Of a DNA stretch of 64,000 nucleotides, positions 24,958 to 53,844 are shown piece by piece. Source of the DNA: an uncultured Clostridia bacterium. GTDB lineage: Bacteria > Bacillota > Clostridia > Christensenellales > UBA1242. The translations under genes and the position numbers were made by a program. The DNA is taken from contig CANSRZ010000005.1 of the NCBI GenBank assembly GCA_947649575.1, positions 1 through 64,000 of the forward strand, given 5' to 3'. The first letter of the stretch is position 1. The number at the start of each line of letters is the position of its first letter. The notes beneath the pieces are model-generated. The model was not told the origin of the DNA, did no database searches, and saw only the letters and a list, made by a program, of their open reading frames with translations.

Positions 24958-27900
24958 ATGAAAAAGTGGGCTATTTGGAAAACTATTTTGGTTGTTATTG
25001 CCAGTGTTGTTTTTGTGGCTGGTGCAACTGTAGGTGGAGTTTATCTTGCAGGCGGGTTTAAAACAAAATACATAAATCCAGACAGGATTTCTTTTGTGAT
25101 TGATGAAAAATTCTTCAATGCAGAATATGCTCAATATGAAATTTCTGGCTCTGATGAAAACTTGACATTTAACGCAGTTATTGAGGGTGAAAAAGAGGGC
25201 GATGAGATTACTCAAAAAACCGTCACCCTTGACCTTGACGGCGGAAGAATTGACTATGAAAAGAAAACTGTTCGAAACAATGTTGTGGTTGTTCCAAGAG
25301 AGGTTACAATTGGCGAGCCATTTACAATAACTCTTAATAGACAACCTTTAAGAATTTCTGCAAGCGGAGAAATTTCTTTCAATGAACAAGATGCGCTTTT
25401 ATATAACCAGCAAGGACTTCCTGTGCCTTGGGTTGTTGGCGGGTTGACAACAATAACTGCTCGCGCTGAAAACGAGGAAGTTTACACAACTGTTAATCTT
25501 GCAGTTGACACTCCTGTTTATAGCATACATAACACAGCTGTTAACAACGACGGCAGAGAAGTTGATCAGCTTACTATTAATGAAACTTTTGACATAAAAA
25601 CAGTTTTCTATCCTGCTGAAAGTGCGTATCTGTTCAATGACCGCACAAATGACAGGGTTGAAAACAAAAGAGTTAGACGTGCTTTTTATGAAACTGTTAC
25701 AAACAATATCAGAGCTGAATTTGATGAAGAGTTTAACAGATATTTTTCAGCAGTTAATGTAAGCACTGGCAACAGGCTGAATGCTTATGCGTTTAGAGAT
25801 GCAACTGCTCAGATTGAAAATATCAATCAAATAACTAATGACCTTGCAGGCGATTTATCTGCAATTTATAGCAGACTGGTTTCTTTGCTTAATGGTGGAC
25901 AAGTCAGCGTGGCTTCTGGAAGTTTGATTGTGGATATCAATAGAGCTTCAATCAAAACTTTCTCAATTGGCTATGCAGGCTCTTCATATAACATGTATGC
26001 AGGTGAAGATTTTGTTCTTACAATGACTCGCACACCTTATGCAAACGCAACTCTTGATGCAAAAGTAATCTCTTCAAATAATAACGAAGAATTGCCATCT
26101 ATGCTTAGAAATATTGCAATCAATTTTGAATATTCAATTGATAATGGACAAACTTATCAAGATGCTTCAAGAGTGCTTGATATTTTGGGCGGTGAACAGG
26201 TAGAAATAGAGGACAAGACATATTATCTTTCTGACACAACTCCAAAAGATCCAAGATATTGCTTCTGGACTTTAAGAACAAACGGCGAATATGAAATCAG
26301 AATGACTGTTGTTTTGCTTATTGAAGTTGAGGGGCAAGAGGGCGTTTACTCATTGTTCAAAGATGACGGAACTGTTATTAGTTCAAATGTCACATTGTAT
26401 ACAGAAATCAAAGAGGATGAGCCTGTTAAATGGGCAAATGATGACCCAATCAATATTACTCTTGACTTTAACGGAACAAGCACAAAACCTGCTTCAAGAA
26501 CTTTATCAAATCTTGTAAGCATTCCACAAAATAACATTTATAAAACTCCACAATTCTTTGCTCACTTTGCAAACGGGACAACATCTGAGGAAATTGAAAA
26601 AATCTTAGGCAAAGGCAATGCTGATTTGTCACCAGATAATATCAATCATAATGGCACTTATCAATTTGGCAACAGTGAAATGACCTTGTATCCTGTTTCT
26701 AATGAGTTGACCGTTTATGACATCGGCAGATTTGAACTTTATTATGCAACTGTGCAAACTGTTGGGAATAAGTATGTTATTGATGACGATAACAGATATG
26801 TAATTGTTCAACCTGTTGCAACTCCGCTTAATGTTATTGTAACAAAAACATTGTATCAAGATTCAATTTCTGGCATGACTCACAAAACTTCAATGGAACT
26901 TGAAGAGGGTTTGACAAATTATTATTTCCATTCAGGCTCAGCTGACACAATTGAATTGACATTCCAAATTGTAGATGACAGTTATGCAATTTTTGCCGAA
27001 AAGCTTGGTCAAAACAGAATAGAATTTAACATGCTTGCATACAACGCTGATAATGAACTTGTAAGCATTAATGAACATTTCAATAATCTTGATATAAACA
27101 GCATTGTTTATGACGAGGAAGAAAAAACTGTAACTTATATATTGACAATCAAAAGCACATTTAATGAAGTGCTTAGTGATTTGAGAATTGTTTCTGCAAG
27201 TTTAAAAGACCTTGATAATGATGCGCTTGCTCCTTGGATATTTGATTTTACAGAAAATTATTATCTTTATACTCCAATCCCTGAAACAATAGACTTTGCT
27301 GTTAAAGATTTTCAAGCTGGTGATTATCAGCAAAATATAGAGATAAATCAAACTCTTAGCAATGATGCTGACGCAAACTTGACAATTCGTTATGAAGTGA
27401 CAGATGCTCAGACTGGCAGAAAAGAAGTTCGTGAATATAAATCTGTTAAAGAATTTGTTGAACAAAACATCAACGTGATTATCGCTGACCAACATGGCAA
27501 TACTTCAATTTTTGAAGACGATTGGATTTTTGTAACCGATTATGCAAACATTGTAAGAATTTTGCCTGGCGGAAAAGAATTTGCATTCTCATCAACTGAG
27601 GGAGAGCAAAGTGCTAATATTTATGTTAGATACAGCGGAAGTGAAAAAGCTTTGGCAAGCGATATAAAATTAAGCCTTACAGTTAACTCTTCTGGCATTC
27701 AAAGAATTGAATATGACAACTCAACAGAAATTGGCTCGACTGCAGACTTAATAGCATCAGACTCTTTGGATGTTATCTCAATTGGAAAGTATGGCTCAAA
27801 CAAAATCCATCAGGGAGAAACTTCGGCTAACAATGTGATTGACCTTTATAAACTTGTAACTCTTTATTTAGATGCGTCAACAGAATATTTAGGCAAAAAC

Positions 27901-30900
27901 TATAACTTTATTTTGGATTCTCAATATTTGGACGCTCAGGATTCTAATACAATTGTTGACATGTTTGGCGAAAATGGCATGTTGATATTGACATTTAGCG
28001 ATGCCTCTTCAATTCCAGGTTATATAGACGACATCGAACAATATGCAAATGCAATCAAAAATGTATTAAGAACAGCTAAAATTCAATCTATGACAGTTAA
28101 TCATAACTTTGGCAAAAATCATGATATGATTTTCAAAATTGTGGATGCTGGCAACACTGGTGTTGTAAACATCACAATGAACTTTACTTTCTTTGCAAAT
28201 GTAGCAACATCAGGCTCAACCACTTTGGGCACAACAGAAAACCCAATCTATGCGGCAACAAATTATTCTATTGGCAGTGGCAATGGAAGCATTAATATAA
28301 ATTATACAAACGCAGACACAAATGTTGGCGAAGTTGAAAAAAGCAAATCTGTTGCATTAAATGATATACTTTTAAAACAAATCAACAAAAATGGCACAGC
28401 CTATGTTGTTGACAATGGCGAAAGTGGCTATAAAATTGCTTTTGGAGATAGCAACAAAGATATTAGTTCTGCTACAATCACTGTTGTTGGCGGAGTTCCA
28501 GTATTTAGCTTTAATGATTTCTGGAATGAGAGAACATTAGAGTTTCCAGTTGTTTTCTATCTTGAAGAAACAGATAATGATTTTGCTCCTTTTGTTTCAT
28601 TAAACTTTACAATTACAAGAAATATTCAAGTTGTAAATAAAAAGATTGAGGACTCTCAAGAAAACAAGAAATATTATTTGATAGAAAGAAGCTCTGCTGA
28701 AAGTTCAAGCAGTCAGTCTAACAATATAAGAGATTATATTGATATTGACAGAATTGCGCCAAGCAGTGTCGCTGTTCCTGCTGATATCAGATTTACAATG
28801 CAAGAAAATCCTTTCTTCTCAATTGTAAATAATCAAGCAAACAATCAAGCAACTATTTTGAGAGATGAAACAAAATTCCCAGTATTCCCTTATGGCGAAA
28901 CGCAGTTGATTTATAACGTTACAGTGTCAATTGGTGAATCTGCAATTGGCAATGCAGACCTTGTATTTGATAGCGGAATAGACTATGCAGAGATTGCCAA
29001 CAGAATGCTTGCTGTGTCTAATGATGCAAACGGTGATCGTGTAGAAGAAACAGGCAAAGCAAAAGTTGAAACTTACAAAGGAGTAAATTATCTCAAATTG
29101 ACAGAGGGAGCTTGGGAAGTTGATAATAATTCTCAAGGTGCATTCTCAGGTTATAGAGTTAACTTTATAAGACAATATACTGACAAATCTTCTAATAATT
29201 CTATTGAGTATACTTCTATTGAATTTGGTAGAGACGAAACAGACACTGGCAATATTGCTTGCTCTTTCTATGGCTTTGACAATTCAGGCTTGTCTGGACT
29301 TGAAAACGAAGAAAATTTTGTAACCGTCAGAGTTGAAAACAGTGATAGAACATGGCAATATGTGCTTCTTATGCCAATCATAATTTCTCGCGTTGGCTCA
29401 ACTTATGCTGTTTATGATAACAATCAAGAGGCAACTTTGACTGACGTGTTGAATGATAATATTGAGCAGTTGATTGAAAAAGATAAATATATGACAGTTG
29501 ACGCAGGGGATGAAAACATTGTTGTTGCTTCTGAATATATAGATATCAATAATCCTTTTGGCGAAACTGCTCAAAAAGATGCAAAGATTTATTATTTTAA
29601 CAGCAATGGGCAAACAGGAATAATTCTTGAAGAAATCTTTGTTGAGGGCTATTCAAAAACTGGACTTGTCAAAGAAATTGACCACTCTCAAACTGCAACA
29701 AATGGCAATGTGATTTTAAAACTTAATCACCTTGTTGGCGGAGCAAACAATTTTGCTTATGTATTCTTAAAAGCAACAATCAGCGGAATTGGCAACTCTG
29801 GCGGAAGTTTTACTCAGGTTTATTATTATGTAGTCAGAGTTAGACCTGATACTGAACTTATTTCTGCAACTTATCCTTATGCTGACGGCGAAGAACATAT
29901 TTCAATTGATAAAAACGGACTTGGACAATTCAATTCAAAAACTATTGATTTGGATGAAAAATTTGATAAAACAACATTAGCACCAGATTCAACTCGCTAT
30001 ACAATCTCTGTGAATGGACAGGCAGGCGTTTATAAAGATTATCCAGTTTCACATTATGTTAAGAGCGTTAGCGAACAAGGCAGACCAATTGAAAATTGGC
30101 AAGATGTTATTGGTGTTGAATTTAATAATGAAAACAGAACTATGACTTTAAGACCTAAACAAGATGGCGTTTACACTATTGTTGTTACAAGGTCTTATCA
30201 AAATGTTGTTGGCGGTGAACTTGATTATACTTTCATTATAAATGAAGTTTCAAATTATAATCTTGAATTTGTTGACACAGCAATCACTCCTGCAAGAGAT
30301 GAGGTTAACACTTGGATTTGGAATGTAAATAGAAATTCTGCAGATGGACAAAGCCAGTTCCAGACAAGAATAAACCTTAGAGCAGGCGAGAATCAAACAA
30401 GCACAATCGTTGAGGGCGAACTTGCAATTAACGCTATTAATTATGAGGATGCTTGCGAAAAAATCGTTTATAACAATAAAAACAGTGTACAAGATGGAGT
30501 AAATCCTTACAGTTTACTAATTGAACTTCAAGATTATTTAAGTCAAGACCACTCAATTGATGTTTATCTTTACACAAAGTTTGGGCTTCTTGGCACGCTT
30601 AGAATAAACATTAAGGGAAGCGTTGAATTTACAGGAACTCAACTTGGCGAAGTTAATGCAGGCAAAGATGTTGACCTTAAAGATTTCTTAGGCCAAGATA
30701 AAAACAATGCTGAAAACGAGGCAGATAAAGATAGAGGCGTTAAGATTAACGGACAAAAAGCTATATATTTTGTTGGCGCAAATCCTGCTGATTCAGAAAC
30801 TCCTGATTATTATTACAACATAAAATCAGCAAAAATTATTGTTCAAGAAGAGCAAAAAATAAACGGTGAAACCATAATAGTTGAAAAAGAACTTGACAAT

Positions 30901-33900
30901 GTTAAATTTGCTAAGATTGAGAATGACAAATTAATCACTTACTCAAATGCAGAGGATAAAGAAATTACAATCAAATTTGAACTTAACATCTGCTTTAAAG
31001 ATGATAAGGGTAGATTGGTTGAAAAACTGTTTACTTTCAATCACAATGTAAAAATAGCAAAAGACTTAAAAAACAATGACCCAGCAGAGAGCGATATTGA
31101 CTTGTCTGGCAATCCAAACAGCACAAGAATTAACACTGTTAAACGCGCAGGCAATGTTATTGCAGGTGAGGAAATTGTTGTAACTGCAAATGAACTTTTT
31201 AATGCTGGCAACTTGCAAGCAACACAAAACGCATTCTTCTCATGGCGTGCAATCTCTGGCGGAGAAGCATTCAGTGCAGGCTCTTCTGCAGACATAACAC
31301 TTGAAGAACAGCAAGGCAAAATTGTTATCAAGACAAATGACATTGCAGAAAATACAAATTGCACAGCGCTTATCACAGTTTCACTTCGCGGAAACGCAAG
31401 TGAAGAAAGCACAGAATATTGTTCATTCTATGTGAAATATGAGTTCTTGGTTGAAAAGAACACTCTTATTGCAACAAATTATCCAGCTCCACAAGGGCAG
31501 GAACTTGATGTTGAATATATTAGTGACGAAACTATATTTAATGATTTCTTAACAGATTTCGTCAATGCACAAGCTCCATTTGTTAACACAAATGAAAGCG
31601 TAAACAAACCTTTAGACGCTGACAAAAACACAAAAGACTATGACGGCAACGGATTGTTCTCTCGCTTTGATATGAAATATAAGGTTAGAGGAGAAAATAA
31701 GTCAATTGGCTTTGCACCAATAGAAGATGCTAAGTTTGAAGTTAAAATTTCAAGCGCAAACAATGTTTCTATCAGAAAGGTTGTGGACGGACAAGAAGTT
31801 GATGTAGACTCAACAAATAAAGTTTTCTCAGACCAAGACGGAAACAATGTTGTGTTTGAAAACAGAGATGGAATGACTCCAGTTGGTGAATTTGGAATTA
31901 AGTTATATATCGGCAATTGGCGAGAAGTTACATCTTCAACAGGTGAAAAATATTACACAGCCGTTTCTGACGGAACTCAGTCAACAGTGACCTTTATGAT
32001 CACTTGCAATGAAGTTGTTAACTATTACACAATTGTGATTGTGGAAGATGCTTATACTCTTGCAATCAACACAGTTAACAATAATGTTACAGATCAAGGT
32101 GAAATTTTCTATGTTGACAACTTGACAAAATCTGCAAAGATTTTTGAGGCTGACAGAATGGCTACTTTCACTGTTAAACGTGCATCTGAAAATGGTCAGA
32201 TTGGTACAATTATCAAAACTCCATATAAAATGTTGTTTGAAAGCGTAAAAGATGAAGAAGTTGATAACAAACGCGATTCGGTTTACGCATATAAATATGT
32301 GGACTTGCAATTGTCAGATGTCAATATTGGTCAGGCAATTAATGTTGACCTTGGCGAGCCTTTTACAGACTATAACTTTGTTGGACTTTATGTTGCAGAC
32401 AAATTTGCAACTGAGTGGGAAAACTATGTTAACAGCATTGGCTCAACTAAGCCGGAAAATAATCCTGGCTATGCTTATGAGAGATTTACAACATCAGCAA
32501 CAAATTATGATTCTCAAATATTTAGTCAAACTCCAACACTTATTTCAAGACTTGACCTTAGATATAACAATATTAAAGTTGACTATGAAAAATATGCAAG
32601 CACATTGAAAGTTAAAGAAAATGACAATGATGAGGGCATTTCTGCAGGTAATTATGAAGTTCAAGCAGAAAATATTGATAAGTATTTGCAAATTTCTAAA
32701 TTTAGCTTTACTTATCCATATAAGCTTGCTTCAAGTTCAACTACAAAAGAAGTTAAATATGAAGAAAAACCTATTGATATTCGAGGCGTAACTTATTCTT
32801 ATTGCATATCAGTTGACGTTCAAGTTGATGAGGCAATTGAGTTTGTTGAAAAAACTCAGATTGTTGATGGTCAAGAAGTTAAAACTATTACTGCAAACAG
32901 CGAAAGTACAAATGATATTTATGCATATCAAACTCAAAACTTGATTGCAGGTTTAGGGGTTCGTCATCCAAGCTCAGTTAGCAAGCAGTTGGTTTCTGCT
33001 GATGACCTTAAGAGCGAAAACATTGATATTAACCTTGAAATTATGGGCTTGAATGGTGTTTGGCCAACTAATGACGCTTATATTGACGCTATCAGAAATA
33101 TTTACGACCGCAGTGGCGTTACAAACTTTGAGCCTCAGGCAGATAGAAGCAATTCGCTTACAACTTACCTTGAAATTTCTCCAGTTCTGTTTGAAGTTTC
33201 AACAGGTGAAAATACTCCTCGCGATGAAACTATTGACTGGCAAATCAGAGGTTCAGGGGCAAGCAATCAAGGCAATCATGTTATCTTGCATATGAACTAT
33301 GAAGTTAAGGTTACAATTAATGGCGAGCCTAAGACATTCTCAAAAGATTTCTATATTGTTATGAAAGTGTTGCCTGACTATGAAATCACTTATCTTAAAG
33401 TTGGAACGGCGACTCCTGATAATGACGGAAACATAACAAACGCAGGCGAAACAACTATTTATACTATAAGTGAACTTACTACAAATCCTGGTGGCGGGGC
33501 AGGCGAGAATTATGTTAATACAATTCTTGCAAGCAATAGTAACAACGATAATAAGATTGTTTCTGTTGTTCATAAAAATGACCCATCTAAACTTGAAGTT
33601 GGCGCTCAAGGATTTACTTATACTATGAAAATTAATGACACAGATGCAAATGATGAAACAATAACTTATAACAAAGATTTGAACGTTAAATCAAAATTGG
33701 CAAGAATGATTACCACAGGCAATCATTGGAGTGCAAATATTTCTAATAATGTTCAACTTCAACCTGAATACAAATGGACAAGTTCAAATGATAATGACAG
33801 CATTGTTATTATTGCAAAAGAAGTTAAATTTGGTGTTCAATATTACAGATTAACCGCTGTTGATATGTTTGGCTTTAAGTTTGATGTTTGCTTTGCATTG

Positions 33901-36564
33901 TCAAATGTATCTCAAATTAATCCAGCAATCAACTTTGGCAATGACTATTTGCTTGAGGGTGACAGCTTTGATATCGGAACTTATTACAACAAAATCACTC
34001 TTACACCCCAAGACAAGATAAAATCTGGCGAAAATGAAGACAAAATTCCGCTTGTGTCAACTGAGGAAGAGGGCAGAGCGCAGAGTGAAAACGTTTCAAA
34101 AGTTATGAATATTTCAAATTTGACAGCCTATGGATATGATAAACCTTTATATGCCCCAACACCAAATGCAGATGGGGTAACTCCTGAAAATTATGGTACA
34201 TTCTTTACAGGAACAGATTCTAACAACTTGAACGAATTAAACAGCGCATATGTTCTAGTTGATGCGGCAAATAAGTCGTTCTATAAAAATATTCCGATCT
34301 TCTTGCAATTGAGAGTTACTTCAATCAAACTTTATTATAACAAGAAGTTTGTGGGCGAAGTTGTGCTTAATAATGAACAGAAAGCAACAACATTTAACGA
34401 AAAAATCGCATCAAGTGCAGGCATACACTTGTTTAAAGATGCAGAACATGATGCTGGTTTTGAAGATGCAAAAGCAAGATATTTGATGCCAAGATTGCCA
34501 GGATATATCTATGGTTCTAGAAGTGATCAAGAGTTAGAGATGGTTGTCGCTCTTGGATATAATTCAAGCTTATCTCATGGCGGTTCTCTTGAATCAGGCG
34601 CAAATTATGAAGAAACTTATGATCTTAGAACATCAGTAACAGTGCGCAGATCAACTAACATTGTTGACAGAGTTAACAATGTTGTTCGTGACGGACAAAC
34701 CTTTGACGTTAAGGACTATATGAATGTATCTCAAACAACTGGCAACAAGACAACAATGTTTACTGCAAATCAATATGCAATTTATGATGATGCATTGGCA
34801 GTGACAACTCCTGCAAACAGTAATACAGAGTTTAAGTTGACAATCACAAAGACTGTTACAGATAAAAATGATCAAGGAGAAGTTACAGGATCACACCAAG
34901 AAACTGTAATTGAAAATAGATCTGTATTCTGCGTGAATAACAATTCTTATGCAAGTACAGACTATCTGTCACTTTCTGATTTGGCAGAAGTAACGCTTGA
35001 TAAAACTGCTAAGTTTACAATAACTGGCGTTACAGTTAAAGGCAACAATGAAAGCGAAAGCGCAATCATCAAATATGCAGGAAATATAGTAAATACTGAT
35101 GTTGAAACTTCATTAACTAGACTTGATGGCAAAGCTGGCAAATCTAATGCTGATGATGTTATTAATATTGAAGATTCTCGCAAATTGTATAATAATTCAG
35201 TGAATATCACCAAGTCTTATCTTGTGAGCGTGAACACAACAGCAACAACGGGCGAAGAATCAGAAAATTCTCAATATGATGCAAATGCCGAAACTGTTGA
35301 ATATAGATATCCAAGAACATATATGGTGACAGGTTTCTATTACTCATTGAACTATAATTACACTGGTCTTAACCAAATAGTTGATGATTATTTGGAAGTT
35401 GCAGGTGCTGACGGCTCAATCAGTGGAAATAATGTTGAATATATCATTCCGCTAATGGGTTGGACAAAAGGCATGGAACTTACAACAGCTGTCCGCACTT
35501 CAAGTGGAATAAGCACAGCAGTTTATGACACATTCAGTGAAGCAAGCACTGAAAAATTGTATTTTGAAATCACAACCACAACGGTTGGAGGAACTCAAAC
35601 TTCAGGTGCTGCGACAATTGATGAAGATGGAACTATCAGAACAAATCAACGTTTTGATATCAATTCTCACTATATCACAGTTGCAATCAAACAAAAGGTT
35701 TCTGGACTTGATGGTAGATATGCAAACAAAGCAACTGATCAAGACTTTGATTTGACAAGAACAAGAACATTCTCATTCAGATTAAGACCAAAAGCGACAG
35801 ACGCTGACAGTATAACTCTTGGCGAGATAAGCAGTTTGATTAAGTCTGAGGGAAATGAATATACTCTTGCATTAAGACATAGAAGTTATGTTAATGGCGA
35901 TATTAAGTATGAAAACAGACTTGTTAACTTTACTGCAAGCGGTTTGGGAAATGTAAAAGCATATATCACAAACACGACCTTGTGGGCAGGCGAAAGCGCA
36001 ACAGGTGTTAATGAAACTTCTAATTCAGGCACATTTGACGGAGTTTATATTGATAAACCTGATAAAGGTGGTATATCATTTACTTCAAGATATGTAAGAG
36101 GCAAAACATTCACCTCAGATGAAGTGCTTGTTAAATTTATTAAAGATCAAACATATTCTAATGCAATAGTAACAAGTACTGATTACGAAAATCCTACACT
36201 AGGCACATATTATTTTGATAAGAGCGAGGGAAAAGCTCATGCTACAGGAAATGAGGGCTCGGATGACGAATATGAAATTATGAGTTTCCCTGCAGGCACA
36301 TTGCATTATGAACAAAGAATCTTGTTAAGCTCAAATCTTAATGCGGTGGGGAAAGCCAATACAACAGGTTTAGTTGAATTTAAGAATGAGCCTCCTAAAA
36401 CTGTTCAAACTGTTCTTGCAAAGACTTGTTATAAGGTTTTTGAAGATGAAGAGCAAAAACTGGTAACATACATTTTTAGAGATTATACTGGCATATACTA
36501 CACAATTCTTTCTAACTTTGCGATTGTGGATGCAAATTCACTTTCGCAAAGGGTGGAAAGTTAG
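24958..36564 (+). CDS. Giant (3868 aa) membrane-anchored, presumably extracellular protein
   Basis: Single uninterrupted ORF, AAAGGAG RBS, N-terminal signal/anchor (WKTILVVIASVVFVAGATVGGVYLAGG), T/N/S/V-rich beta-type composition. Confidence 0.9.
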   Translation: MKKWAIWKTILVVIASVVFVAGATVGGVYLAGGFKTKYINPDRISFVIDEKFFNAEYAQYEISGSDENLTFNAVIEGEKEGDEITQKTVTLDLDGGRIDYEKKTVRNNVVVVPREVTIGEPFTITLNRQPLRISASGEISFNEQDALLYNQQGLPVPWVVGGLTTITARAENEEVYTTVNLAVDTPVYSIHNTAVNNDGREVDQLTINETFDIKTVFYPAESAYLFNDRTNDRVENKRVRRAFYETVTNNIRAEFDEEFNRYFSAVNVSTGNRLNAYAFRDATAQIENINQITNDLAGDLSAIYSRLVSLLNGGQVSVASGSLIVDINRASIKTFSIGYAGSSYNMYAGEDFVLTMTRTPYANATLDAKVISSNNNEELPSMLRNIAINFEYSIDNGQTYQDASRVLDILGGEQVEIEDKTYYLSDTTPKDPRYCFWTLRTNGEYEIRMTVVLLIEVEGQEGVYSLFKDDGTVISSNVTLYTEIKEDEPVKWANDDPINITLDFNGTSTKPASRTLSNLVSIPQNNIYKTPQFFAHFANGTTSEEIEKILGKGNADLSPDNINHNGTYQFGNSEMTLYPVSNELTVYDIGRFELYYATVQTVGNKYVIDDDNRYVIVQPVATPLNVIVTKTLYQDSISGMTHKTSMELEEGLTNYYFHSGSADTIELTFQIVDDSYAIFAEKLGQNRIEFNMLAYNADNELVSINEHFNNLDINSIVYDEEEKTVTYILTIKSTFNEVLSDLRIVSASLKDLDNDALAPWIFDFTENYYLYTPIPETIDFAVKDFQAGDYQQNIEINQTLSNDADANLTIRYEVTDAQTGRKEVREYKSVKEFVEQNINVIIADQHGNTSIFEDDWIFVTDYANIVRILPGGKEFAFSSTEGEQSANIYVRYSGSEKALASDIKLSLTVNSSGIQRIEYDNSTEIGSTADLIASDSLDVISIGKYGSNKIHQGETSANNVIDLYKLVTLYLDASTEYLGKNYNFILDSQYLDAQDSNTIVDMFGENGMLILTFSDASSIPGYIDDIEQYANAIKNVLRTAKIQSMTVNHNFGKNHDMIFKIVDAGNTGVVNITMNFTFFANVATSGSTTLGTTENPIYAATNYSIGSGNGSININYTNADTNVGEVEKSKSVALNDILLKQINKNGTAYVVDNGESGYKIAFGDSNKDISSATITVVGGVPVFSFNDFWNERTLEFPVVFYLEETDNDFAPFVSLNFTITRNIQVVNKKIEDSQENKKYYLIERSSAESSSSQSNNIRDYIDIDRIAPSSVAVPADIRFTMQENPFFSIVNNQANNQATILRDETKFPVFPYGETQLIYNVTVSIGESAIGNADLVFDSGIDYAEIANRMLAVSNDANGDRVEETGKAKVETYKGVNYLKLTEGAWEVDNNSQGAFSGYRVNFIRQYTDKSSNNSIEYTSIEFGRDETDTGNIACSFYGFDNSGLSGLENEENFVTVRVENSDRTWQYVLLMPIIISRVGSTYAVYDNNQEATLTDVLNDNIEQLIEKDKYMTVDAGDENIVVASEYIDINNPFGETAQKDAKIYYFNSNGQTGIILEEIFVEGYSKTGLVKEIDHSQTATNGNVILKLNHLVGGANNFAYVFLKATISGIGNSGGSFTQVYYYVVRVRPDTELISATYPYADGEEHISIDKNGLGQFNSKTIDLDEKFDKTTLAPDSTRYTISVNGQAGVYKDYPVSHYVKSVSEQGRPIENWQDVIGVEFNNENRTMTLRPKQDGVYTIVVTRSYQNVVGGELDYTFIINEVSNYNLEFVDTAITPARDEVNTWIWNVNRNSADGQSQFQTRINLRAGENQTSTIVEGELAINAINYEDACEKIVYNNKNSVQDGVNPYSLLIELQDYLSQDHSIDVYLYTKFGLLGTLRINIKGSVEFTGTQLGEVNAGKDVDLKDFLGQDKNNAENEADKDRGVKINGQKAIYFVGANPADSETPDYYYNIKSAKIIVQEEQKINGETIIVEKELDNVKFAKIENDKLITYSNAEDKEITIKFELNICFKDDKGRLVEKLFTFNHNVKIAKDLKNNDPAESDIDLSGNPNSTRINTVKRAGNVIAGEEIVVTANELFNAGNLQATQNAFFSWRAISGGEAFSAGSSADITLEEQQGKIVIKTNDIAENTNCTALITVSLRGNASEESTEYCSFYVKYEFLVEKNTLIATNYPAPQGQELDVEYISDETIFNDFLTDFVNAQAPFVNTNESVNKPLDADKNTKDYDGNGLFSRFDMKYKVRGENKSIGFAPIEDAKFEVKISSANNVSIRKVVDGQEVDVDSTNKVFSDQDGNNVVFENRDGMTPVGEFGIKLYIGNWREVTSSTGEKYYTAVSDGTQSTVTFMITCNEVVNYYTIVIVEDAYTLAINTVNNNVTDQGEIFYVDNLTKSAKIFEADRMATFTVKRASENGQIGTIIKTPYKMLFESVKDEEVDNKRDSVYAYKYVDLQLSDVNIGQAINVDLGEPFTDYNFVGLYVADKFATEWENYVNSIGSTKPENNPGYAYERFTTSATNYDSQIFSQTPTLISRLDLRYNNIKVDYEKYASTLKVKENDNDEGISAGNYEVQAENIDKYLQISKFSFTYPYKLASSSTTKEVKYEEKPIDIRGVTYSYCISVDVQVDEAIEFVEKTQIVDGQEVKTITANSESTNDIYAYQTQNLIAGLGVRHPSSVSKQLVSADDLKSENIDINLEIMGLNGVWPTNDAYIDAIRNIYDRSGVTNFEPQADRSNSLTTYLEISPVLFEVSTGENTPRDETIDWQIRGSGASNQGNHVILHMNYEVKVTINGEPKTFSKDFYIVMKVLPDYEITYLKVGTATPDNDGNITNAGETTIYTISELTTNPGGGAGENYVNTILASNSNNDNKIVSVVHKNDPSKLEVGAQGFTYTMKINDTDANDETITYNKDLNVKSKLARMITTGNHWSANISNNVQLQPEYKWTSSNDNDSIVIIAKEVKFGVQYYRLTAVDMFGFKFDVCFALSNVSQINPAINFGNDYLLEGDSFDIGTYYNKITLTPQDKIKSGENEDKIPLVSTEEEGRAQSENVSKVMNISNLTAYGYDKPLYAPTPNADGVTPENYGTFFTGTDSNNLNELNSAYVLVDAANKSFYKNIPIFLQLRVTSIKLYYNKKFVGEVVLNNEQKATTFNEKIASSAGIHLFKDAEHDAGFEDAKARYLMPRLPGYIYGSRSDQELEMVVALGYNSSLSHGGSLESGANYEETYDLRTSVTVRRSTNIVDRVNNVVRDGQTFDVKDYMNVSQTTGNKTTMFTANQYAIYDDALAVTTPANSNTEFKLTITKTVTDKNDQGEVTGSHQETVIENRSVFCVNNNSYASTDYLSLSDLAEVTLDKTAKFTITGVTVKGNNESESAIIKYAGNIVNTDVETSLTRLDGKAGKSNADDVINIEDSRKLYNNSVNITKSYLVSVNTTATTGEESENSQYDANAETVEYRYPRTYMVTGFYYSLNYNYTGLNQIVDDYLEVAGADGSISGNNVEYIIPLMGWTKGMELTTAVRTSSGISTAVYDTFSEASTEKLYFEITTTTVGGTQTSGAATIDEDGTIRTNQRFDINSHYITVAIKQKVSGLDGRYANKATDQDFDLTRTRTFSFRLRPKATDADSITLGEISSLIKSEGNEYTLALRHRSYVNGDIKYENRLVNFTASGLGNVKAYITNTTLWAGESATGVNETSNSGTFDGVYIDKPDKGGISFTSRYVRGKTFTSDEVLVKFIKDQTYSNAIVTSTDYENPTLGTYYFDKSEGKAHATGNEGSDDEYEIMSFPAGTLHYEQRILLSSNLNAVGKANTTGLVEFKNEPPKTVQTVLAKTCYKVFEDEEQKLVTYIFRDYTGIYYTILSNFAIVDANSLSQRVES

Positions 36565-47635: not shown

Positions 47636-50227
47636 TTATTCATCTGAAACATCTTCACTGTTAACTTCAATAGTCTGTCCGTTTTCTGCAACAGGGACAT
47701 CTTCACTGTTATTTTCAACTATGACAGGATTGCCGTTTTCGTCAAGTTGAGGTTCATCAGGCTCTTTTAAGGTTATTGCAACCGCTACAATCTTAGCGTC
47801 ATTTTTCAGCCTCATAATGCGTACGCCCTGGCTAACTCTTGAAAGCCAGCTGATGTCGTCAAGAGGAGTTCTGATAACAACACCATTATCAGCAATAAGC
47901 ATAATGTCGCTGTCGTCATGAACTTGTTTGAGTGAAACAAGTTTTCCAGTTTTGTCATTAAATACGCCAGCTTTAACACCCATTCCGCCACGAGCCTGAA
48001 CACGATATTCATTCACATTGCTGCGTTTGCCATAGCCATTTTCAGTTATTGTGATAATCTGAGCATCTTTATCTTCATAATCGCCAGCTTTGATGACAAC
48101 CATATCAACGATTTCATCTTTTGCAGAAATTTTCATACTACGCACGCCTTGACTGTCACGACCCACTCTGCGAACATCTTTTTCACTAAAACGAATACAT
48201 TTGCCTGCTCGGCTAGCAATCAAAATATGGTCATCGCCATCAGATTGTGCAACACCAATAAGTTCATCACCATTAACAAGCTTGATTGCAATCTTGCCAA
48301 CTTTGCGGATTGAGTGGAATTCAGAAAATCTTGTCTTTTTGATATATCCGCGCTTTGTTGCCATAATCAGATTGCCGCAAATGTGGTCAGGGGATGGAAT
48401 GATTGTTGTAACTTTTTCTTCTGGGGCAAGTTGCAAAAGATTAACAACTGCTCTGCCTTTTGCAGTGCGTTGTGCTTCTGGGATTTCATAAGCTTTTATG
48501 CTGTAAACTCGCCCAAGGGTTGTAAAGAAGAATAAGTCGTCATGAGTGTTTGTAACAAACATATGCTCAACATAGTCCTCTTCCTTGGTTTTATGAGCTG
48601 TTATGCCTACGCCACCACGGTGTTGAGATTTGTATTCACTAACTGACATGCGCTTGATATAGCCCTCATGAGTGAGTGAAACAATAACATCTTCTTTCTC
48701 AATGAGGTCAGCGATGTCAATTCCGCCAGCGTCAAGAGAGATTTCAGTTTTTCTAGCGTCGCCGTAATCAGCCTTAATTTTTTCAAAGCCCTCTTTAAGA
48801 ATTTGCAAAATACGTTCAGGTTTTTCGAGTATATCTTTAAGGTCGGTGATTAATGCTTCAAGTTCAGCGAGTTCTTGATTAAGTTTTTCAACTTCAAGTT
48901 TTGCAAGTTTAGAAAGTTTCATTTCAAGAATAGCATTAGCTTGAATTTCGTCAAGTTCAAAGTTTTCGCAAAGTTTAACCATTGCGTCTTGACGGTCATC
49001 AGCCGATTTGATAACGCGGATAACTTCATCAATGTTTGCAAGCGCGATTACAAGACCTTTTACGATATGTTCACGCTCTTCGGCCTTTGCAAGGTCAAAC
49101 TTAGTCTTGCGAGTAAGCACTTCTTTTTGATGTTCAAGATAGTAATAAAGCATTTCTTTAAGATTGCAAATTTTTGGAGTATTATTTACGATTGCAAGGA
49201 AGATGATTCCTGAGCCTTTTTGAAGTTGAGTATGTTTATACAACGCATTTAACACAACTTGAGCATTTGCGTCTTTTTTGATATCAACAACAACGCGCAT
49301 TCCCTCACGGTCAGACTCTTCTTTAATATCGCTAATTCCCTCAACGCGCTTGTTTTTAACAAGGTCAACCATTTGCAAAATAAATTGCTCTTTGTTTACT
49401 TGATAAGGAAGTTCTGTTATGATAATGCGTTGTTTGCCAGAGGCTGTTTCTTCAATTTCAGCACGGCCTCTTACAACAATTCCGCCACGACCAGTTTTAT
49501 AAGCATGTTTAACAGCCGTTCTGCCCATAATGATACCACCAGTAGGATAATCAGGTGCAGGAATATATTTGATAAGTTCGTCAATCTCAATGTCAGGATT
49601 GTCTATCATAGCCTCTAAACCGTTCAAAACTTCTGTAAGGTTATGAGGTGGAATATTTGTAGCCATACCAACCGCAATACCATCTGCGCCGTTCACTAAC
49701 AGGTTAGGAAATTTTGCAGGCAGAATCACAGGCTCTTCCAGAGTGTTGTCAAAGTTAGGCTTAAAGTCGACAGTGTTTTTGTCTATATCTTCAAGCATTA
49801 AAGCAGCAATCTTTGAAAGACGTGCCTCTGTGTAACGAGAAGCAGCGGGAGGGTCTCCGTCAACAGAACCAAAGTTACCTTGACCGTCTACAAGAGGATA
49901 GCGGATAGAGAAATCTTGGGCAAGACGAACGAGTGCGTCATAAACAGAGCTATCGCCGTGAGGGTGATATTTACCCATAACTTCACCCACAATTCTTGCC
50001 GACTTCTTAGTTGGTTTATCATAAAAGTTGTTCATTTCACCCATACCAAAAAGTATGCGTCTATGAACTGGTTTCAAACCGTCCCTTACATCTGGGATTG
50101 CACGCGAGATATTAACCGCCATAGCGTAAGAAATAAAGGACCTTTTCAAATTGTCCACAGTATCAATTTTTTCGACCTTAGTTGATTGGAATATCTCCTC
50201 TAAAGGCTTTTTTTCATTTTTGTCCAT
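47636..50227 (-). CDS. gyrA: DNA gyrase subunit A
   Basis: [46 protein letters not shown], GyrA-box-like QHRGGVG. Confidence 0.96.
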
Positions 50228-50243
50228 AAAACTCTCCAATTAT

Positions 50244-50276
50244 CAACTTTTCTTCAAAAGAAAAGTTGCAAAAGAA
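50244..50276 (+). repeat. Palindromic hairpin plus GCAAAAGAAA motif
   Basis: CAACTTTTCTT-CAA-AAGAAAAGTTG then CAAAAGAAATTT; related units at 57926 and 58155. Confidence 0.6.
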
Positions 50277-50278
50277 AT

Positions 50279-50830
50279 TTATTTAGCTTGAGAAAGTTGT
50301 TTTAATGTTTCAAAATATCTATTAAAATGTAATTTCATTTTATTATCAAAGTTTTTTGTAATCACAGTCATGTTTTCTTCTATATCATTAATTATCTGTC
50401 TTGCACAAGCATAAACATTCATATCTACTACATCACTATTTTTAATAATCTCATTTTTATTTGTTGTTAGCCTAGCTTCCAAGATGGAGCCTTCTGGGAC
50501 TTCAGTAATATAAACTTTTTCGTCAACTACTGATATTTGTATTAATCCTGGCTCTTGGTCAAATCGCATAAAGTTTAGTTTTTGCGGATTAGCAATAGCA
50601 TCAACAAAAAATTTAACAATTGAAACAGCAATATTATCACTAAAACAATTTTCCAATGCATAGCCAAAATACACACATTTGGCTTGCTTTTCATTATTTT
50701 GTAAATAAGCAATACAATTATAAATAGAGAAATCGTCATTGATTATCAACTTAAAACTTGGGGCTTTGCTTTGTTCCATTTGTTTTAAAACATTGTCGAT
50801 TTTATCAACATATTCTTTATTTTTGTCCAT
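50279..50830 (-). CDS. Hypothetical protein
   Basis: ORF with GGAGAA RBS before the internal Met at 50830. Confidence 0.65.
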   Translation of the reverse strand: MDKNKEYVDKIDNVLKQMEQSKAPSFKLIINDDFSIYNCIAYLQNNEKQAKCVYFGYALENCFSDNIAVSIVKFFVDAIANPQKLNFMRFDQEPGLIQISVVDEKVYITEVPEGSILEARLTTNKNEIIKNSDVVDMNVYACARQIINDIEENMTVITKNFDNKMKLHFNRYFETLKQLSQAK

Positions 50831-50840
50831 ATTTTCTCCT

Positions 50841-51164
50841 TTAATTTTGCAATTTTCTCTCTTTATATTCTTTAACTTTTTCTTTGCCTTTTTCAATTTT
50901 AGCTAAACGGATTTTTTCAATTTCGTCAAAACCGTCAAAAATGTAAGCGAGTTCTTCAATACAAATTTCAACATCGGCAATGCAGTCATAAAGAGTAGCC
51001 AAAAGCTGTTGTTTTTTGCTTTCAGTGTCATCAACTGCCATACGTTTGTATTTGCAAATGGCTTTTGTAAGTTCGCTCATCTCTTCAATGGTGATTTGCA
51101 GTATCCAATCATCACCAAAAGTTTCCATATATTGTTTGTAAGGGTTTACATCATACTTTTTCAT
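50841..51164 (-). CDS. MazG-like nucleotide pyrophosphohydrolase-type protein
   Basis: IEEMSELTKAICKYKR...LLATLYDCIADVEICIEEL (EExxE ... ExxD-like all-alpha arrangement). Confidence 0.7.
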   Translation of the reverse strand: MKKYDVNPYKQYMETFGDDWILQITIEEMSELTKAICKYKRMAVDDTESKKQQLLATLYDCIADVEICIEELAYIFDGFDEIEKIRLAKIEKGKEKVKEYKERKLQN

Positions 51165-51729
51165 TAGGTTTCTCCTTATAAATAATTTCTTTGCCATGTG
51201 CTTTAGCGTAAGCGATTTCTTCTTTAACGCTTTCGCCAATATAGCCATCAATGTTTACAATATAGATTGCATCTGAAATATCAATCTTTTTGTAATGAAT
51301 TTGTGCAACAATTTCTTTTTCGTTATCGTTTAATGGCTTATTGCTAAACACAGGTTGAAGCACACACCAATTATTTTTAAGTTCAAGTTCCATAGCAATA
51401 TCAATCATTTCTTTTTGAAATTTCATACTGCCACAAATTGTTACGGTCTTTATGTGTTTATCTTTTTTATCTCTAAACGCAATGGCACAAATTAAAATAA
51501 TCAGACAAAAGGCTAGTTCAAGGCTTGTTTCTACAATCAACATGACGGTGTCTGTGCAAAGCACTGCGTAAAGCGAGTAAGATATTGAACTGAAAACCCA
51601 AAGGCACCACGACCAAATGCTTAAATCTTCGGCTTGTTTTGTTCGCAAGCATTTGACAATTTGTGGGAAATATGAAATAAAGGTGCAAATTGAAACAATG
51701 ATTAAAAGTATATTTCCTAATGTTTCCAT
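51151..51729 (-). CDS. Fusion of SemiSWEET/PQ-loop membrane domain and nucleoside 2-deoxyribosyltransferase-like domain
   Basis: N-term ISYFPQIVKCLRTKQAEDLSIWSWCLWVFSSISYSLY; C-term VTICGSMKFQKEMIDIAMELE...KIDISDAIYIVNIDGYIGESVKEEIAYAKAHGKEIIY. Confidence 0.75.
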   Translation of the reverse strand: METLGNILLIIVSICTFISYFPQIVKCLRTKQAEDLSIWSWCLWVFSSISYSLYAVLCTDTVMLIVETSLELAFCLIILICAIAFRDKKDKHIKTVTICGSMKFQKEMIDIAMELELKNNWCVLQPVFSNKPLNDNEKEIVAQIHYKKIDISDAIYIVNIDGYIGESVKEEIAYAKAHGKEIIYKEKPNEKV

Positions 51730-51780
51730 TTCTTCTCCTTTGTTAAGAACGAATATAATTTGTATTTTCTATCTGTATGC

Positions 51781-51804
51781 TGACAGTCGTGCAACATCTG
51801 GTTG

Positions 51805-51805
<1 letters not shown>
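51781..51805 (-). repeat. Short dispersed repeat, copy 2, immediately after the gyrB stop
   Basis: tgacagtcgtgcaacatctggttgc; 23/25 match to 22821..22845. Confidence 0.6.

Positions 51806-53844
<2,039 letters not shown>

Follow-up and report, generated by a model that had tools for sequence, protein, structure and literature searches.

In this study, a gene was found that joins a PQ-loop (SemiSWEET-like) unit of three transmembrane (TM) helices to a nucleoside deoxyribosyltransferase (NDT)-fold domain. It is a genuine gene fusion: one open reading frame (ORF) encodes two folds, and the same fusion is present in three species. The gene was identified in a window of 64,000 nucleotides (the whole stretch of DNA analysed) from an uncultured Clostridia bacterium. 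The architecture is real and rare, and both parts are of known kinds. No paper joining PQ-loop/SemiSWEET proteins with nucleoside deoxyribosyltransferases was found in the literature searched.

Fused Gene and Its Neighbours

The features of the locus are listed in Table 1. The ORF starts with ATG, directly preceded by a strong Shine–Dalgarno sequence (AAAGGAG), and has no internal stop. The distance from gyrB to the fused gene is 75 bp. The MazG-like gene lies downstream and overlaps the fused gene by 14 bp; it had no Pfam match at the cut-off. The 183-aa protein gave no match in Pfam, NCBIfam and PADLOC searches. No PADLOC model was matched by the fused protein or the MazG-like gene either, and an anti-phage defence system was rejected on this basis. 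Elsewhere in the window, positions 24958–36564 hold one ORF of 3868 aa, in a genome of just 1.1 Mb.

Table 1. Features of the gyrB–gyrA locus in the window.
Feature	Position	Strand	Evidence
Fused gene: PQ-loop (SemiSWEET-like) 3-TM unit and NDT-fold domain, 192 aa	51151..51729	-	ORF; AlphaFold; orthologous fusions in G057 and G136
PQ-loop half, residues 1–86, three TM helices, PQ motif P22-Q23	51472..51729	-	PF04193; solved SemiSWEETs
Linker/junction, residues 87–93 (DKKDKHI); stand-alone NDT start codon is ATA	51451..51471	-	
NDT-fold half, residues 94–192	51154..51450	-	Foldseek NDT matches; conservation over 81 sequences
MazG-like NTP pyrophosphohydrolase gene	50841..51164	-	phrog_2245, E = 3.6e-16
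gyrB, upstream flank of variable slot	51805..53805	-	tblastn anchor
183-aa protein of unknown family, between MazG-like gene and gyrA	50279..50830	-	
gyrA, downstream flank of variable slot	47636..50224	-	Used in genus search

The full-length fused protein was modelled by AlphaFold2 with a pLDDT of 86.4. Three long helices (residues 2–30, 38–58, and 62–86) were followed by a compact α/β domain from residue 95 to 184. The model supported both folds. The joining of the two domains in one uninterrupted ORF, as given in the original prediction, was confirmed, and the full-length fusion recurred in two other species.

PQ-Loop Half

Residues 4–57 of the fused protein matched PF04193 at 44.1 bits, where the cut-off is 22 (E = 1.7e-11). 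The protein also matched MtN3_slv (25.2 against a cut-off of 23.7). Solved SemiSWEETs were found directly by sequence, with E values down to 1.6e-5, and a family profile reached E = 1.7e-7. The cut-off of the NCBIfam SemiSWEET subfamily was not reached (28.8 against 80 bits). The PF04193 match and the three modelled helices confirmed the 3-TM PQ-loop unit proposed for the N-terminus. P22-Q23 in TM1 and Glu67 and Glu71 in TM3 were invariant in nine relatives.

The substrate (sugar) pocket of EcSemiSWEET includes Trp50 and Asn66 (PMC4309421). In the fused protein, Trp50 corresponds to Tyr51, and Asn66 corresponds to Glu67 or Thr68, by the alignment used. Since both pocket residues are replaced, sugar transport by the PQ half is not to be assumed. 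The positive-inside charges predict an N-out/C-in orientation with the C-terminus of the PQ half in the cytoplasm, which would also make the NDT-fold domain cytoplasmic.

NDT-Fold Half

The C-terminal half of the fused protein had no Pfam match at the cut-off, and the NDT-fold half alone scored 13 bits for DUF4406 against a cut-off of 22. Weak Pfam matches were present among 28 relatives: DUF4406 in 12 (best E = 0.001) and Nuc_deoxyrib_tr in 4 (best 0.0021). A PDB sequence search with the NDT-half profile gave no genuine match. AlphaFold2 on this half alone reached a pLDDT of 93.4. In the Foldseek search, NDTs were at the top (E = 5.7e-4, probability 1.00, TM 0.66–0.75 on the query), human DNPH1 was close behind, and TIR domains, including the TIR NADases SARM1 and Bacillus cereus TIR, were lower in the list. 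The predicted models therefore supported an NDT fold (Rossmann-like) for this half. The NDT/DUF4406-like assignment of the original prediction was upheld by fold, but not by Pfam HMMs at the cut-off.

The numbering of DNPH1 used here agrees with the residues given in the paper cited next. The catalytic residues of DNPH1 are Tyr24, Asp80, and Glu104 (PMC10603095). Assigned by motif and spacing, not by superposition, these positions correspond to Thr97, His145, and Glu171 of the fused protein. Across 81 related sequences, CGS (C99 G100 S101), His145, Ile149, Tyr174, Ala175, and Lys180 were invariant. E171, at the nucleophile position, was kept in 80 of the 81, Asp153 in 79, and Asp150 in 75. By spacing, a catalytic Asp is expected where all 81 sequences have His145, and a catalytic Tyr where 77 have Thr97. 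The window protein retains the putative active-site residues conserved across these sequences. The NDT half thus belongs to an NDT-fold group whose site is altered yet strongly conserved. With the catalytic Asp and Tyr replaced here, and the sugar-pocket Trp and Asn replaced in the PQ half, neither activity can be assumed.

The NDT-like half represents an uncharacterised, widespread family of about 100 aa. Members are also present on Streptomyces, Mycobacterium, and archaeal (Salinibaculum) plasmids, and are nearly always annotated as hypothetical protein. In genome G123, one member is fused to a Nudix hydrolase domain (L044:436-1284; 282-aa ORF, PF00293, E = 5.1e-9).

Distribution of the Fusion

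Of 112 genus genomes, three carried the full-length fusion, namely that of the window, G057, and G136. The latter two were deposited as uncultured Clostridia and Firmicutes metagenome-assembled genomes. A full-length profile search returned the same three species among 298 family genomes and the window genome alone among the 396 order genomes sampled, with no fusion outside the genus in either set. A profile search of genome contigs found two already known fused relatives and no others. A class-level scan with the PQ profile added one more PQ gene, an unfused frame of 105 aa. A fusion common elsewhere was thus rejected within the genomes sampled in the genus, family, and order scans.

The fusion is rare, and separate genes are the rule in most relatives, often with just one part present. 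Homologs always split into two genes had been named in advance as a sign of an assembly fusion; three species carry the fused gene, although the split state prevails. Matches to the fused profile were obtained in 99 of 298 family genomes, mostly to the NDT half, and PQ-loop genes above the family cut-off in 18 of 296. Where unfused genomes carried both genes, the two were nowhere adjacent (112 genus and 298 family genomes).

The fusion was located at the gyrB–gyrA locus in all three species of this one reduced-genome genus. Protein identity among the three was 69–73%, and the linkers differed. The gyrB–gyrA interval (50225–51804 in the window; loci L119–L178) is a variable slot, whose length varied between 15 and 1791 bp across 61 genus genomes. 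It held MazG-like genes (one or two) in 27 genomes, the NDT part in 8, and the PQ part in 4. The slot was almost empty (<190 bp) in 21 of the 61, and others had DUF488-like or unknown genes. An NDT gene stood alone in G137 and G138, was followed by MazG in G024 and G140, and was followed by DUF488 in G042. In G146, DUF488 was followed by PQ alone. Since G146 has PQ without the NDT half, and G137 and G138 have NDT without PQ, neither part needs the other.

Other bacterial PQ loci had mixed neighbours. Among about 18 loci, Nudix was a neighbour twice, cytidine deaminase once, and a DUF84 NTPase once; a consistent position of bacterial PQ genes beside nucleotide genes is only suggestive. In two genomes, a stand-alone PQ-loop gene is followed directly by a Nudix gene (L004:1742-2347 and L086:487-924). 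A divergent PQ-loop gene of G050 (L030:1477-2273) precedes a cytidine deaminase gene (PF00383) and, judged by position, a Nudix gene on the same strand. In G055 (L005:1804-2379), a ToxN-family type III toxin gene (PF13958) adjoins the PQ-loop gene.

History and Selection

Stand-alone NDT relatives have ATG at the start codon that corresponds to the junction. In the window this codon reads ATA and in G136 ATT, but G057 has ATG. The separate NDT start is thus lost in two of the three fusions (the window and G136). In G057, the retained ATG is preceded by AAAGGA, and the NDT part may also be made separately. Comparison of the three fusions gave dN of 0.10–0.29, with synonymous sites near saturation (pS 0.72–0.88). 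Such low dN values, beside synonymous sites this close to saturation, suggest purifying selection on both halves.

In the gyrA+gyrB tree, the three fused species were in three places and were not sisters. In the PQ-half tree, the window paired with G136 (99/98), and G057 with G146 (84/83). One fused clade was not rejected for the PQ halves (p-AU 0.12); for the NDT halves, p-AU was 0.77. As read from the domain trees, one origin of the fusion is neither required nor excluded.

PQ-Loop and NDT Gene Pairs in Phages

A tandem PQ-loop membrane protein, phrog_2642, was identified through a weak match of the PQ half to Staphylococcus phages (E = 3); the window protein matched this family at E = 2.3e-8. 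Direct comparison of the PQ half with the phage protein gave 31% identity (E = 7e-8), and profile comparison gave a probability of 94% (E = 1.3e-7). In Kayvirus G1 and pSa-3, the tandem PQ-loop gene overlaps a nucleoside 2-deoxyribosyltransferase gene by 8 bp. The Kayvirus NDT gene is above the PF05014 cut-off, and its product keeps the canonical triad Y11/D68/E92. The gene upstream of the PQ gene in Baoshanvirus phiSA_BS2, with a 4 bp overlap, is NDT-like. An HNH endonuclease gene lies between the NDT and PQ genes of Silviavirus Romulus, and in the Sextaecviruses S-CoN_Ph6 and PT1-4 the two genes share a strand at a distance of 1.5–1.7 kb. In SPbeta-like and Mammaliicoccus phages (L205, L206), the tandem PQ gene instead has ribonucleotide reductase genes a few genes downstream. 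In a predicted-structure library, one phage, Myoviridae sp. ctrf010, is represented by a SemiSWEET with 38% identity to the PQ half and an NDT with 37% identity to the NDT half.

The phage NDT had no similarity to the NDT family of the window in profile comparison. Because of this dissimilarity and of the tandem build of the phage PQ protein, the phage pairs count as analogues of the fused gene rather than orthologues. Different enzyme subfamilies seem to have entered the pairing. By analogy, the staphylococcal gene pairs support a functional coupling of PQ-loop and NDT proteins.

Possible Function and Alternative Explanations

Functional coupling of the two halves is supported by context. The function tentatively favoured here is that of a membrane-tethered N-glycosidase-like domain that feeds, or is fed by, a PQ-loop transporter. 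The fusion would have formed when a SemiSWEET-type PQ gene inserted in frame upstream of an NDT-like gene in the gyrB–gyrA slot, both of them stand-alone until then. The PQ half would dimerise as SemiSWEETs do, so that two NDT-fold domains would be brought together where the channel opens to the cytoplasm; enzymes of the NDT family likewise form oligomers. The NDT-fold domain may cleave or bind an N-glycosidic substrate (a nucleoside, nucleotide, or relative), using Glu171 and probably His145. The PQ-loop dimer may carry a small product or substrate (a base, or a pentose with its phosphate) through the membrane. A role in the nucleotide pool would fit with the adjacent MazG-like gene. The coupling of nucleoside uptake or sensing to turnover that was first proposed is plausible, and the phage pairs support it independently, but two of the three canonical catalytic residues and the pocket pair are replaced. 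On a wider view, which is rather unlikely, the recurrence of PQ-loop transporters with NDT-fold glycosidases would mark an undescribed functional module that couples N-glycosidic cleavage at the membrane to base or pentose passage, with a non-canonical His/Glu site in the bacterial enzyme; it would cover the fusions of the three gut species, the staphylococcal phage pairs, and the two proteins of Myoviridae sp. ctrf010.

The main rival to this coupling, credible but held with some doubt, is that the fusion, formed in a slot that changes fast, is neutral or serves for tethering only. In that case, the loss of a stop codon would have joined two unrelated small genes, with each half keeping its own job and the PQ half acting at most as a membrane anchor for the NDT half. 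The turnover of the slot, where MazG-like, DUF488, NDT, and PQ genes occur in many combinations (61 genomes), agrees with such an origin, and either half is absent at the same locus in sister species. The Nudix fusion of another NDT family member (L044) also points to promiscuous fusing. However, three diverged species have retained the fusion, two of them without the NDT start codon, and the same two kinds of gene overlap or lie near each other in several genera of staphylococcal phages.

A membrane-bound nucleotide sensor or effector is improbable. Here, by analogy with TM-linked nucleotide-dependent defence effectors, an NDT/TIR-like domain would bind a nucleotide signal and gate the PQ-loop domain. 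A binding role would be compatible with the altered catalytic site, and TIR NADases were among the Foldseek matches. However, neither the fused protein nor its neighbours matched PADLOC models, and neither a nucleotide-signal synthase nor any other defence gene was recognised around this gyrB–MazG–gyrA locus. To our knowledge, the characterised bacterial PQ-loop units are transporters, which also argues against gating by a signal. An assembly or binning artefact that joined two genes, for which the metagenomic origin of G057 and G136 might speak, is rejected as exceedingly improbable, because the same junction recurs at the same locus in three separate assemblies that differ in their linkers and in 28–31% of their amino acids, and the window contig of 126 kb has intact gyrB and gyrA around the fused gene.

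If the coupling of glycosidase-like domain and transporter is true, it would provide a candidate substrate class (bases, pentoses, and nucleosides versus sugars) for many orphan bacterial PQ-loop proteins. It would also assign a role to a widespread family whose members are annotated just as hypothetical protein, and would explain why overlapping NDT and PQ-loop genes are kept by staphylococcal phages.

Comparison with Known Systems

The fused protein shares with SemiSWEET/PQ-loop 3-TM transporters (PF04193, PF03083; 4x5m, 4qnc) the three TM helices, the PQ motif in the first of them, the length, and significant sequence and profile matches. It differs from them by the extra C-terminal domain, the replaced pocket Trp/Asn, and the invariant Glu67 and Glu71 of TM3.

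The NDT half shares the fold and the Glu at the nucleophile position with the NDT superfamily, which includes DNPH1 and the MilB N-glycosidases. The CGS motif at the first strand is common to DNPH1 and the NDT half, and E104 of DNPH1 is comparable to E171 (PMC10603095). Unlike the superfamily, the NDT half has only about 100 residues, lies below the Pfam cut-offs, and has His145 for the catalytic Asp (8 residues before a conserved Asp) and Thr97 for the Tyr.

DmtZ and NDT-Dut fusions are encoded by PurZ0 (Z-genome) bacteriophages (PMC12884076). Their NDT-family domain is likewise found alone or fused to a nucleotide-metabolism domain, but the partner is a dUTPase, which is soluble and has no membrane domain.

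The Kayvirus pair differs from the fused protein in having two overlapping genes in the order NDT then PQ, a tandem PQ unit, and the canonical NDT triad in place of the altered site. In the staphylococcal phage pair (phrog_1817 and phrog_2642), as in the fused protein, an NDT-fold protein and a PQ-loop membrane protein are encoded together, and the PQ halves are related.
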